A DNA stretch of 35,995 nucleotides from Acidobacteriota bacterium. Its GTDB lineage: Bacteria > Acidobacteriota > Terriglobia > Terriglobales > Acidobacteriaceae. Below are positions 1 through 35,956 of the stretch, one piece after another. The notes under the pieces were generated by a model that saw nothing but the letters and a program-made list of their open reading frames with translations, did no database searches and was not told the origin of the DNA. Numbering within the stretch: the stretch's first letter is position 1; every line of letters starts with the position of its first letter. Where the stretch lies: positions 1-35,995 of the forward strand of contig JAKAFB010000031.1 in the NCBI GenBank assembly GCA_021818105.1. The letters are read 5' to 3'. A program made the position numbers and the translations under genes.

Positions 1-2
1 GA

Positions 3-79
3 TGGTCGGGGCGGAGGGATTCGAACCCCCGACCCTCTGCTCCCAAAGCAGATGCGCTACCAGACTGCGCTACGCCCCG
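3..79 (-). tRNA. tRNA-Pro (anticodon TGG), CCA encoded
   Basis: The minus strand folds as a full cloverleaf. The acceptor stem CGGGGCG (79-73) pairs with CGCCCCG (13-7), followed by discriminator A and an encoded CCA (complement of 3-5). The anticodon loop TTTGGGA gives TGG, which reads proline codons, and the T-loop carries the usual TTCGAAT. A TACAAT hexamer on the same strand at 98-93 lies 13 nt upstream of the first base and is the likely -10 element. Confidence 0.97.
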
Positions 80-92
80 ATGACCTGTCTTG

Positions 93-98
93 ATTGTA
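93..98 (-). promoter_or_regulatory. -10 element of tRNA-Pro
   Basis: TACAAT on the minus strand, 13 nt before the mature tRNA 5' end. The same hexamer sits 13 nt before tRNA-His and 10 nt before tRNA-Arg in this window, which supports it as the housekeeping -10. No convincing -35 is visible. Confidence 0.6.
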
Positions 99-130
99 GC
101 GCGGATTGGCCTTCCGGCAACCGCGGCGTC

Positions 131-664
131 CTACACATGCGCGTTCAGCCACACCAGCAGCCACACCACCAGCGCCAGCGGAATGGCAAAGACCATTGCC
201 ACTGCTGCGGCCAGCGCGCACAGGAAGAGCCAGTCGCGCCACGTGTGCCGTCGCGGCTCGGCCAGGTGCCGCTGCAGCAGCGCATAGTTGCGCCGGTTGG
301 GCTTCCATGCAATGTCGAACGCGTCGCCGAAGACCGGTACCGTGCCGATGAGTACATCGATGCCCAGATTCACCAACATGCGCACCAGCGTGATGTAGGG
401 AACTCCGCGCACCCATGCGGCCAGCGGGATGACCAGCGACAGCAGACCTCCGATCACATCTCCAAGGCCGGGGACGAGCCCGATGATGCCGTCAATGCCG
501 AAGCGAATCCGCGTGCCCGGTATGCGAAAGGCCTCGTCGAGCAGGATTTCGAGCTTGCGCAAAGTCTCGTCGCGAAAGAGCCATGCGATGCGACGCGAGC
601 GCTCGAACGGCAGTCTGTTCAACTGCGGTCTGTCGGGCTGCGGATTGATGGATGCCTGGGTCAT
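131..664 (-). CDS. DUF4112 family membrane protein
   Basis: The 177-residue product has the typical DUF4112 core: a soluble stretch of about 50 residues, then IDGIIGLVPGLGDVIGG, a hydrophobic segment, VNLGIDVLIGTVPVFGDAFD, and a C-terminal transmembrane helix (roughly residues 151-173). The paired 'P-G-L-G-D / P-V-F-G-D' repeats are the family hallmark; the function is unknown. I chose ATG 664 (MTQASINP) because the longer reading frame would start at 736, at the edge of tRNA-His. No strong ribosome binding site precedes it. It is divergent from tRNA-His, so the two share the short region 665-736. The call as DUF4112 is fairly sure; any role is not. Confidence 0.85.
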   Translation of the reverse strand: MTQASINPQPDRPQLNRLPFERSRRIAWLFRDETLRKLEILLDEAFRIPGTRIRFGIDGIIGLVPGLGDVIGGLLSLVIPLAAWVRGVPYITLVRMLVNLGIDVLIGTVPVFGDAFDIAWKPNRRNYALLQRHLAEPRRHTWRDWLFLCALAAAVAMVFAIPLALVVWLLVWLNAHV

Positions 665-4660: not shown

Positions 4661-5815
4661 TTAGGACTGCTTTGCTCCGGTTGAATCTGGAGACGTTGCC
4701 CGGGCACCTGCTCTTTTGCCGCCCAGCAGGCCAAAGCGCGCCAGCATCACAAACCACAGAATCACGCCTGCCACAAAGACGACAAGGAAGAGCGGAAATA
4801 CCGACCATTGCGTCTGCACGGTGAATTGCTCCGGGCGGAACCAAGGCTTGAGATAGGCGTCCCTTAGAATGTCGCGCATGATGGACATGCTCAGGATGAC
4901 CACGCCCAAAATGCCCGGAACCAGATAGCCGGCGACGCGCAGGTTCTCTTTGCGCAAGGCATCGGCCATCAGGAAAATCGCCGCTATACCACCGACAACG
5001 CCTACAAGCAGCAGCGCAGTCGCAAGAGCATTGTCGCCCATGAAGAGCATCCGCATGTCGCGGGGAAGAGTCACGAGGAAGATGAGTCCAACTACCATCT
5101 GCGCCATCGTCGCGTACATGAAGGTCTTGCCGCCGAGATTCAAGAGCAGGCGTGCATAAGCGCGATCACGCTTCCAGTTCGCCATCGCCATGAAGACCAA
5201 GAGGATGCCGCCCACAGCCACCGCAGCCACAAAAAAGTGGAGGTAGCGCGGAATTAATGTTGGCTCAGCGAGGTTGAGGTTCCACCCGGAAGGGTCAGAG
5301 AAATATTTGTCACTCCAGCGCGAAGGTGTCTGGCTGAGCGTGAAGTTATTGCTGAACATGAATCCAACAATGAAAAGGAGAATGGCGCTGAACCACATGA
5401 CACGGCCGGACTTGCCCGGCTGTTGTCCGCTGCGAAACGACACATAGTAGAAGCCGTAATAGGCAAGCGTGATGAGCACCAGAATCAGAAACCACGGCCA
5501 GGCCATGATGATGGATGACGTGTAGAAATACTGCCCGTAGAGCACCTGAACAAAGAGCAGGGGGGCAACGCCCAGCGTAATGGTTGCGGGGAGAAGAGAT
5601 GGAAGCTTTCTGGCAATATCAAAAAACGCCTGCGTGCCGTAGGATGTATCCTTTGCTCGCCATTTCGCCGCGATAGCCATCACGGCCCCGCCCAGCATTA
5701 AATTCATGGCCACAATGTGCAGGAAGAAAGTCACCACCAGCAATACCTTGAAGACCCAGAAAGGCGCAGGCAAAGGATTGGGGTCCAGGTTCGGAATCAT
5801 GTTGGGTTCTATCAT
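4661..5815 (-). CDS. CydA-like membrane protein without heme c (second subunit of bd-superfamily complex)
   Basis: A 384-residue integral membrane protein with about nine hydrophobic helices. Its start resembles cytochrome bd subunit I: FFLHIVAMNLMLGG places His33 where CydA has the heme b595 ligand. RYLHFFVAAVAVGG (His193) resembles the helix that carries the low-spin heme ligand His186 of E. coli CydA. The segment MRDILRDAYLKP echoes the REAIRKPYVI motif of its partner. The acidic pair found in CydA helix 3 is absent. Its ATG overlaps the partner's stop (ATGA, 4 bp), so the two are translationally coupled and probably form one complex. Membership of the superfamily is inferred from these short matches; the reaction is not established. 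Confidence 0.7.
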   Translation of the reverse strand: MIEPNMIPNLDPNPLPAPFWVFKVLLVVTFFLHIVAMNLMLGGAVMAIAAKWRAKDTSYGTQAFFDIARKLPSLLPATITLGVAPLLFVQVLYGQYFYTSSIIMAWPWFLILVLITLAYYGFYYVSFRSGQQPGKSGRVMWFSAILLFIVGFMFSNNFTLSQTPSRWSDKYFSDPSGWNLNLAEPTLIPRYLHFFVAAVAVGGILLVFMAMANWKRDRAYARLLLNLGGKTFMYATMAQMVVGLIFLVTLPRDMRMLFMGDNALATALLLVGVVGGIAAIFLMADALRKENLRVAGYLVPGILGVVILSMSIMRDILRDAYLKPWFRPEQFTVQTQWSVFPLFLVVFVAGVILWFVMLARFGLLGGKRAGARATSPDSTGAKQS

Positions 5816-7392
5816 GGTTCATTTCCTCCGGGCTCTGCGACGGCAATGCCCTTCGCAGTGCGCTGTGCGTTCACCCACTGCGCCAAAGCCATGCGCTGCT
5901 GGTCAGTAAGTTGCAGATGAGGCATCAGCGGGAACAGGCTCGTCAGGTCCTTCATGGCATCGCTGGCAGTGCCTGGGTCCTTGGGAAGGTTCCGGAACAG
6001 TTTGTCCTTGGCGTTGATCTGGTGACACATGGAGCAGTTCTGTGCGAACACTGTAGCGCCATCCGTGACAACCGGAGCCGAGGCAGGGATGGGATGCAGC
6101 GAACTCAGGTAAGCCGCAAGCGCGGCGCGCTCCGCATCCGTTCCCGCAAAGGGCGGCATCACATTGTTGTGCATGAATTCAAGGCCGGTCAGCATGGCAT
6201 CAATTTCGTTTCGGTCCCATGCGCGCAGCGTAATGTAGTGCTTCAGGCCACGATACGCATTCGGCGTGTGGCAGCTTGCGCACTCCACGCGAAAAATCTC
6301 TCGTCCGGCGGCAATTTCATTCGCCGGGGTCAGTTCGCGCGTCTTTATCCACTTTGCGGTTGGCAGAATCCCTGCGCTGCTTACCGCATCCGCGTTGAAG
6401 CCTCCATCGCCCGGAGTCTCTGCGGCATACAGCGAGTTGGCATAGAGATAGTTCGCAATCACATACGGCTTGCGAATGGCCTCGCGCACAAACTCAAACG
6501 ATCCCATGGTGCCAAGAGCAACCAGTGCTACCAGCAGGCTGAATGCAAGATGTATCCGCCGTGGGCGCGCGAGCGCAAGCAGCGCCAGCACAAAGGTCAC
6601 ACTCAACAGAATGACCGCAAGCATGGCGTAGTGTGTGCCCGTCGGCATCGGCCCGCGCGCGCTTGCCCACACCTCCGCAGGAATGCGGTGGATGTACCAC
6701 CATCCCAGGAATGGCAACACCGCGAGGCAGGGAACAATCCATCGTGAGCTCCACCGCACAATGCGCGCTTTCAGCTCCGGATCCTTCTGCACGCTGGCAG
6801 TAATGAGCGCATAAATGCCCGCTAGTGCCAGTGCAATGGCAAAGCGGAACGCCAGTGAAGGAAAATACGTCGGATTAAAGAAGCCCTTCCAGAACTCATG
6901 ATTTTTGACCCAGCTTCCTGAGGTCAGCATGAATGTGATGATCCCATTGATGATTACCAGGCTCATGAATGCGGCAAAGAAATAGATCCACCCATACCAC
7001 TCATGCAGCCGCGGTTCGAGACGATTCCATCCATACAGATAAAGCAACGCAGCGGTGATCTCCACAAAGAAGAACACCCACTCTATCGCCCATCCCCACA
7101 CATACGCATGAATCAGGTTGCTGGTCGCCGTTGGACTGATGAGCGCAATTGTGAACCAGATGCCCACCCCGCTCACGGCTCCAAACACCACCGTGACCAG
7201 CACGAAGAACTTCGTATGCGCTTTCAGCCAGTCCAGCAGCGCCTCATCGTTGTTGCGTCGGGCTCTGCGCTCCGTCAGCACCAGAAAGAGCCCGCCACCT
7301 ACAGCAAAGTGCGAGACAAAGACGTGCAGTATGGCCACCACTGCCATCAACAGACCGGCGCCGAACGCCACATCCCATACTGGATAGTTCAT
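5812..7392 (-). CDS. CydA-like membrane protein fused to a diheme cytochrome c domain
   Basis: A 526-residue protein. Residues 1-320 form an eight- to nine-helix membrane part resembling cytochrome bd subunit I: LHVFVSHFAVGGG (His23 at the b595 ligand position), AIEWVFFFVEITAAL (Glu104 and Glu111, as in the CydA acidic pair), YGWNRL, and FVREAIRKPYVIANYLYANS. There is no long loop where CydA binds quinol. The His186-like ligand is missing: the helix reads LAFRFAIALALAG. Residues 360-510 hold two c-type heme sites, CASCH (371-375) and CSMCH (453-457), with NNVMPPF as likely axial Met for the first. This domain should face the periplasm. ATG 7392 is chosen because GAGGAGG lies 5 nt upstream. 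It is likely a terminal oxidase or related electron-transfer subunit. Confidence 0.75.
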   Translation of the reverse strand: MNYPVWDVAFGAGLLMAVVAILHVFVSHFAVGGGLFLVLTERRARRNNDEALLDWLKAHTKFFVLVTVVFGAVSGVGIWFTIALISPTATSNLIHAYVWGWAIEWVFFFVEITAALLYLYGWNRLEPRLHEWYGWIYFFAAFMSLVIINGIITFMLTSGSWVKNHEFWKGFFNPTYFPSLAFRFAIALALAGIYALITASVQKDPELKARIVRWSSRWIVPCLAVLPFLGWWYIHRIPAEVWASARGPMPTGTHYAMLAVILLSVTFVLALLALARPRRIHLAFSLLVALVALGTMGSFEFVREAIRKPYVIANYLYANSLYAAETPGDGGFNADAVSSAGILPTAKWIKTRELTPANEIAAGREIFRVECASCHTPNAYRGLKHYITLRAWDRNEIDAMLTGLEFMHNNVMPPFAGTDAERAALAAYLSSLHPIPASAPVVTDGATVFAQNCSMCHQINAKDKLFRNLPKDPGTASDAMKDLTSLFPLMPHLQLTDQQRMALAQWVNAQRTAKGIAVAEPGGNEP

Positions 7393-35868: not shown

Positions 35869-35956
35869 TGGTGCCGGGAGGGGGGGTCGAACCCCCATGA
35901 CCGCAAGGGTCGGCGGATTTTGAGTCCGCTGCGTCTGCCAGTTCCGCCATCCCGGC
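35869..35956 (-). tRNA. tRNA-Leu (anticodon CAA), CCA encoded
   Basis: Acceptor GCCGGGA (35956-35950) pairs with TCCCGGC (35879-35873), then A and CCA (35871-35869). The stem GCGGA/TCCGC encloses loop CTCAAAA, giving anticodon CAA for leucine TTG codons. A long variable arm (GACCCTTGCGGTC) and 88-nt length confirm class II. Its 3' end abuts the broken gene at 35622-35868. Confidence 0.97.

Follow-up and report, generated by a model that had tools for sequence, protein, structure and literature searches.

A 35,995-nucleotide stretch of an Acidobacteriota genome (family Acidobacteriaceae; assembly GCA_021818105.1, contig JAKAFB010000031.1, positions 1 to 35,995), referred to here in its full length as the window, carries on its minus strand two adjoining genes, A and B, that encode a pair of paralogs with the CydA fold of cytochrome bd oxidases. 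Gene A (5812-7392, with its ATG at 7392) specifies 526 residues, comprising a CydA-like core of eight transmembrane (TM) helices (residues 1-310) and a C-terminal diheme cytochrome c domain, and gene B (4661-5815) specifies a 384-residue paralog of nine TM helices; the stop of A and the start of B overlap in an ATGA at 5812-5815 (tcat on the plus strand), precisely where a first-pass annotation, made from the DNA letters alone, had put them. We infer, with somewhat better than even confidence, that A and B form a heterodimeric, heme-bearing membrane complex of the bd superfamily, whose electrons for the reduction of O2 come from a c-type carrier in the periplasm or from a bc-type complex. The pair is probably a cytochrome-c-linked O2 reductase of the published OR-C branch of that superfamily.

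The signature of a bd-type active site resides in A. Pfam recognizes Cyt_bd_oxida_I in this protein (37.5 bits; cut-off 26.2) together with cytochrome c domains, and the structure model aligns with E. coli bd-I over residues 6..321 (2..462 of the latter). Our canonical reference comprised 31 CydA rows (E. coli plus loci), in which H19, E99, E107, H186, M393, E445 and R448 are invariant; residue counts for A refer to 134 rows (128 distinct) covering profile positions 15-415, some genomes contributing two rows, one from a short locus and one from a longer one. Profile alignment by hhalign equates H23 in TM1 (7324-7326; all gene and residue coordinates are on the minus strand) with H19, which we take to be a ligand of the active-site heme, and this residue is kept in 133 rows. 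The acidic pair of TM3, E99 and E107, corresponds to E104 (7081-7083; 133 rows) and E111 (7060-7062; 132 rows). Beyond what the first-pass annotation had recognized, A also keeps equivalents of E445 and R448, namely E304 (6481-6483; 133 rows) and R307 (6472-6474; 134 rows). Their shared register was counted from the RKPY/RQPW motif and agrees with the end of the E. coli bd-I structural alignment, the A-CydA profile alignment being unusable in this region because of the quinol-binding loop (Q-loop) of CydA. Deviations at these five positions are confined to three loci (L160, L168 and L141), and E300 and R303, which E. coli does not share in the chosen register, are present in all 134 rows. A Pfam score above cut-off, and the recurrence of the same residues in more than 100 relatives, argue that the residue pattern of the two proteins is not due to chance.

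Missing from A are the ligands of the low-spin heme. The position of H186 is occupied by F182 (6847-6849) when the profiles of A and B are aligned, and is His in a single row; the A-CydA profile alignment instead sets R183 there, an Arg in 134 of 134 rows, so that neither candidate is His. The exceptional row derives from an A-type protein (L218:2933-4156) for which no B was found in its 5.7-kb stretch. The Met partner of H186 in CydA is, we assume, M393 on TM7; no Met in TM7 of A is kept in as many as half of the rows, so that A offers no counterpart of M393. Nor does either protein have a long Q-loop, the linkers between TM6 and TM7 in the two models measuring 13-14 residues (14 in A). The cytochrome c domain of A contains a first heme c motif, CASCH (residues 371-375; 6268-6282), with M412 as distal Met, and C371, C374, H375 and M412 are each found in 134 of 134 rows. 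A second motif, CSMCH (residues 453-457; 6022-6036), has M490 as distal Met, and this second heme c occurs in 47 of 68 diverse rows (H457 in 47, M490 in 46, gaps in 21). Eight TM helices in the model, combined with the orientation of CydA, place the domain outside. The number of CxxCH motifs in A is one, two or three, apart from eight in one Bacteroidales locus (L048:7049-9727), whose 892-residue A joins a multiheme cytochrome to the bd core; in a further locus of Bacteroidota (L046:3401-6004) two tandem A genes stand ahead of one B.

B is more elusive at the level of sequence. Nothing in Pfam or NCBIfam scored above cut-off, and a search against PDB sequences returned only seven weak matches (E 1.7-2.0), all of them unrelated plant proteins; this uninformative outcome made a comparison of folds necessary. 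The model has nine TM helices in a CydA fold, and Foldseek finds CydB chains as well. Counts for B refer to 143 rows (118 distinct) covering profile positions 25-330, again with some genomes represented by both a short and a longer locus. By hhalign, H33 in TM1 (5717-5719) is equivalent to H19 and to H23 of A and occurs in 143 of 143 rows, and H193 (5237-5239), carried by the segment RYLHFFVAAVAVGG, occupies the position of H186 in 123. Alignment to CydA reveals no Glu pair in TM3, the position of E445 is variable, and that of R448 is Leu in 136 rows. Other conserved residues are Y123 (142 rows), R190 (140), R314 (140), Q90 (139) and R318 (138). Pfam, the profile alignments and the structural comparison thus bear out most of what had been proposed from the letters: a CydA fold in both proteins, each with a b595-type His in its first helix and no long Q-loop; an acidic pair and a fused diheme cytochrome c, with two CxxCH motifs, in A; and a complementary loss of sites, A being without the low-spin His and B without the Glu pair.

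A feature that had escaped the first-pass annotation is M310 in TM8 of B (4886-4888), which tracks H193. Both residues are invariant in a first set of 83 rows. In the wider set of 143 rows, 123 keep both, 18 have lost both, two have lost only H193 and none only M310, amounting to joint retention or loss in 141; the corresponding figures in a dereplicated set of 99 rows are 83, 14, two and none. Mapped on a tree, H193 changes five times and M310 six, with at least four of the H193 changes on well-supported branches, and an independent-pairs sign test gave a mean of 3.7 pairs changing in the same and 0.0 in the opposite direction (p 0.125, the pairs being too few for significance). Such concerted gain and loss suggests that H193 (TM5) and M310 (TM8) are the two axial ligands of one putative heme. 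The position of M393 itself, counted back from the end of TM8, falls near A267 of B; Leu, the most frequent residue there, accounts for 36 of 143 rows. In six loci (L213, L217, L219, L223, L216 and L141) the B reading frame contains CxxCH motifs too, so that certain lineages may have acquired a heme c in B.

Ten loci, in which the A-B pair encloses or follows genes for a Rieske protein and a cytochrome b, bear on the likely donor. The order B-Rieske-cytochrome b-A occurs in eight Acidobacteriota genomes with a split pair, one of them (G171) from the window's own genus, and in L210, from the phylum of genome G369; L063, from G369 itself, has the order Rieske-cytochrome b-A-B. Pfam confirmed all scanned proteins of these cassettes (two Rieske, four cytochrome b), and the cluster motifs are present in 10 of 10 Rieske proteins and PEWY in 10 of 10 cytochromes b. 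In each cassette locus A has exactly one CxxCH, and inside the cassettes no other same-strand CxxCH open reading frame (ORF) was found, one of 274 residues lying beyond A in L139. With this single motif, the heme c of A is probably where the Rieske protein delivers its electrons, and the arrangement supports heme c as the putative point of electron entry in those loci. A 903-residue frame across A and cytochrome b in L210 was rejected as a fusion, as were apparent A-B fusions (open frames of 704-927 residues), since both reflect overlapping frames.

The His/Met site of B is mostly gone from these cassettes. H193 and M310 are both lost in eight of the nine B-Rieske-cytochrome b-A loci, L142 keeping both; in L063, examined apart from the 143 rows, H193 is lost and M310 is unreadable where the end of the locus cuts B, which brings the loss of H193 to nine of the ten bc-linked loci. 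Losses also occur where bc genes are absent (both residues in seven A-B and three B-only rows, H193 alone in two), so that the association is only a tendency, resting largely on one clade. In the larger of two A trees, the B-Rieske-cytochrome b-A rows fall into a single clade (Shimodaira-Hasegawa-like approximate likelihood ratio, SH-aLRT, 98) along with one B-A row, and L063 lies outside it in an unresolved position on a long branch; the earlier tree had grouped L063 with the cassette rows at 92. Both were "quick" trees without bootstrap. The disappearance of the site beside a bc complex suggests that it has a role in electron entry and makes a quinol-oxidizing stand-alone form possible. A stand-alone B, such as that of the window, may accordingly provide another way in for electrons, with quinol as a conceivable source.

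In the mechanism we favor, B would stand in place of CydB and support A. Electrons would enter at the heme c of A and pass to its two-heme site (H23, E104, E304), with protons arriving from the cytoplasm through the region of E111, and B, both here and in the majority of relatives, would hold a His/Met heme b (H193/M310) in addition to the conserved His site at H33. In the cell, the complex could serve aerobic respiration or O2 scavenging alongside the other oxidases of the cell. More tentatively, and with rather less than even confidence, we suggest that the low-spin heme moved to B with a new His/Met ligation and that electron entry became swappable: stand-alone pairs would be fed via heme c and the B heme, and the cassettes would specify a bc-bd quinol oxidase supercomplex in which the heme c of A serves as cytochrome c1 and the B heme has mostly been dropped. 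Swappable entry of this kind is the most novel part of the proposal.

A and B are inherited together. A adjoins B in 58 of 59 named B loci, the remaining one (L039) being cut by a contig end. Among 247 Acidobacteriota genomes, surveyed with limits of E 0.001 for B and E below 1e-70 for a strong A (at most six A candidates being scored in each genome), B was found in 56 and strong A in 54; both were present in 54, B only in two (G052 and G071), and strong A only in none. Coordinates read in the 54 genomes show the genes contiguous in 44, split by other genes in eight, and on different contigs in two. Twelve further Acidobacteriota genomes gave weak A matches, 10 of them in one genus (f47/g70). 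The one match from this genus that was read (G184/L138) was rejected as A, being a different CydA-like protein: this 639-residue product (L138:1109-3028, minus strand; Cyt_bd_oxida_I, 90.8 bits) has an N-terminal extension and an adjoining 155-residue CxxCH ORF, and seems closer to what has been published on the OR-N type. Within the phylum of G369, A was detected at E up to 1e-60 in 17 of 246 genomes, and among 17 refetched A stretches from 16 other genomes of that phylum B accompanied all but L218. Record titles place the hosts of the pair in about 13 phylum-level groups (Acidobacteria, KSB1, Calditrichaeota, Kryptonia, Zixiibacteriota, Poribacteria, Bacteroidota, Krumholzibacteriia, Omnitrophota, Armatimonadetes, Proteobacteria, desulfo-groups and Phycisphaerae); L026, for instance, comes from Granulicella sp. 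L46. The 27 genomes that yielded L036 and L040-L065 are of unstated completeness; 17 of them lack a CydB match and 23 have a heme-copper oxidase, which argues that the pair is independent of CydB and that it seldom takes the place of a heme-copper oxidase.

Several observations weigh against a cytochrome-c-linked O2 reductase. No bc genes adjoin the window's own pair; A and B lie on different contigs in two genomes, and B occurs without a detected A in two. A heme-copper oxidase in 23 of those 27 genomes means that a role in O2 respiration is not demanded. Neighboring genes gave no sign of a fixed genomic partner. Flanking ORFs of 100 to 900 residues were picked at 38 of the 59 named loci by a simple non-overlap choice that surely admitted some wrong frames, giving 122 in all; among the 100 of these (37 loci) scanned with Pfam no family recurred, the top one reaching at most four. 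Conserved residues, moreover, cannot tell O2 from nitric oxide (NO) as a substrate, and a purely c-linked path does not explain what the heme sites of B are for.

The alternatives account for parts of this evidence. A stand-alone pair could still be a quinol oxidase, with a new quinol site near a b558-like His/Met heme in B and heme c acting as a relay or second input. The b558-type His is mostly kept in B, and the loss of H193 from nine of the ten bc-linked loci, together with M310 in eight of them, is what would be expected if the bc complex takes over quinol oxidation. Yet neither conserved quinol-site residues nor a Q-loop are present, heme c is found in every A row, the bc-linked L142 retains both residues, and the losses recur in the rows mentioned above that have no bc genes; we consider this explanation unlikely. 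Still less probable is a complex that reduces another substrate, such as NO, or operates backwards, as a cytochrome c:quinone enzyme. Hosts named in record titles include Desulfuromonadales and Desulfobulbaceae, which we take to be mostly anaerobic groups. An alternative-complex-III-like role is raised for the bd-like proteins of nitrite oxidizers in the available passages of PMC3578206. A, however, retains every active-site residue conserved in the 31 canonical CydA rows, the E107-type glutamate included, and no NO-related family appears among the 25 of 135 neighbor families listed. Equally improbable, in our estimate, is a heme-free B that serves as a structural, CydB-like partner with its His residues as remnants: CydB shares the general fold, and Foldseek matches B to CydB chains, but the universal H33, and the split of H193/M310 into 123 rows with both, 18 with neither and two with half, are not the behavior of remnants. 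Finally, a dehydrogenase membrane anchor of the NrfD/PsrC type with a cytochrome c, the homology that the first-pass annotation had itself singled out for scrutiny, is highly improbable, as Pfam lists no NrfD family for either protein even with E values of up to 10 admitted.

Regarding its setting, the window's A-B pair is preceded by a citrate synthase gene and followed by a ribonucleotide reductase gene, both on the same strand, neighbors that give it the appearance of a stand-alone unit. Rfam identifies genes for tRNA-Pro (3-79), tRNA-His (738-812), tRNA-Arg (2481-2557) and tRNA-Leu (35869-35956), and no other family above threshold in the window. The source genome (completeness 97.9%) also has four heme-copper oxidase subunit I matches and, on contig C18, a canonical CydA (480 bits) with an adjacent same-strand ORF that by eye reads as CydB (L001:374-2880). 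The earlier statement that no canonical CydB is present is consequently true of the window and does not extend to the genome, and the source organism reads as having both kinds of bd system, a canonical CydA/CydB-like one and the putative A-B complex.

In the available passages of the bd literature, experiments concern the quinol-oxidizing branch. From the division of sites between the two proteins, the joint loss of H193 and M310, and the cassettes follow precise predictions as to which donor and which hemes belong to bd enzymes devoid of a quinol site. As a corollary, to count every cydA match as a quinol oxidase is to misread genomes with the pair, which is present in 54 of 247 sampled Acidobacteriota and scattered in other phyla, with a B that stands outside the Pfam and NCBIfam families above cut-off.

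The OR-C branch of the cytochrome bd superfamily was reportedly defined by Murali, Gennis and Hemp in 2021. A has the CydA fold and the equivalents of H19, E99, E107, E445 and R448 (133, 133, 132, 133 and 134 of 134 rows) expected of the superfamily, and B alone has not the residues of a two-heme active site. A joins a CydA core without a quinol site to heme c, all 134 rows having a CxxCH with its distal Met, and heme c on a CydA core is taken here as the mark of OR-C members. Canonical CydAB of E. coli and Geobacillus, the qOR type, shares with A the fold and those five residues; A differs in having no Q-loop, in lacking H186 and M393 (both present in 31 of 31 canonical rows), in its cytochrome c domain in place of TM9, and in being paired with B instead of CydB, for which 17 of 27 pair genomes have no match. 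In their available passages, PMC13189123, PMC10839748 and PMC11707229 name OR-C within a three-branch classification (qOR, OR-C and OR-N), and PMC8951039 gives three branches without names. A study of Acidobacteria oxidases (PMC8407424) covers caa3, cbb3 and canonical bd types, the A-B pair being absent from its available passages. Our literature search, which returned mostly title listings, found no paper title on a bd/Rieske operon, which is weak evidence for its novelty. The closest parallels, again from passages of the papers concerned, are the OR-N CydAA' of Nitrospinota, from a family described as uncharacterized (PMC10839748), and the Nitrospina bd-like protein (PMC3578206): like A and B, these involve two CydA paralogs proposed to associate, a putative cytochrome c donor and a lack of quinol residues, but the Nitrospina protein is described with 14 TM helices, additional ones standing where the Q-loop would be, in contrast to the eight and nine helices modeled for A and B and the fused diheme cytochrome c. 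The TO_3 and TO_4 clusters of Candidatus Manganitrophus, a member of the Nitrospirota, combine bd-like genes with complex III-like components (PMC9040806). With paralog pairs already proposed for OR-N and these Manganitrophus clusters reported, we assign the A-B pair to a known kind of system.
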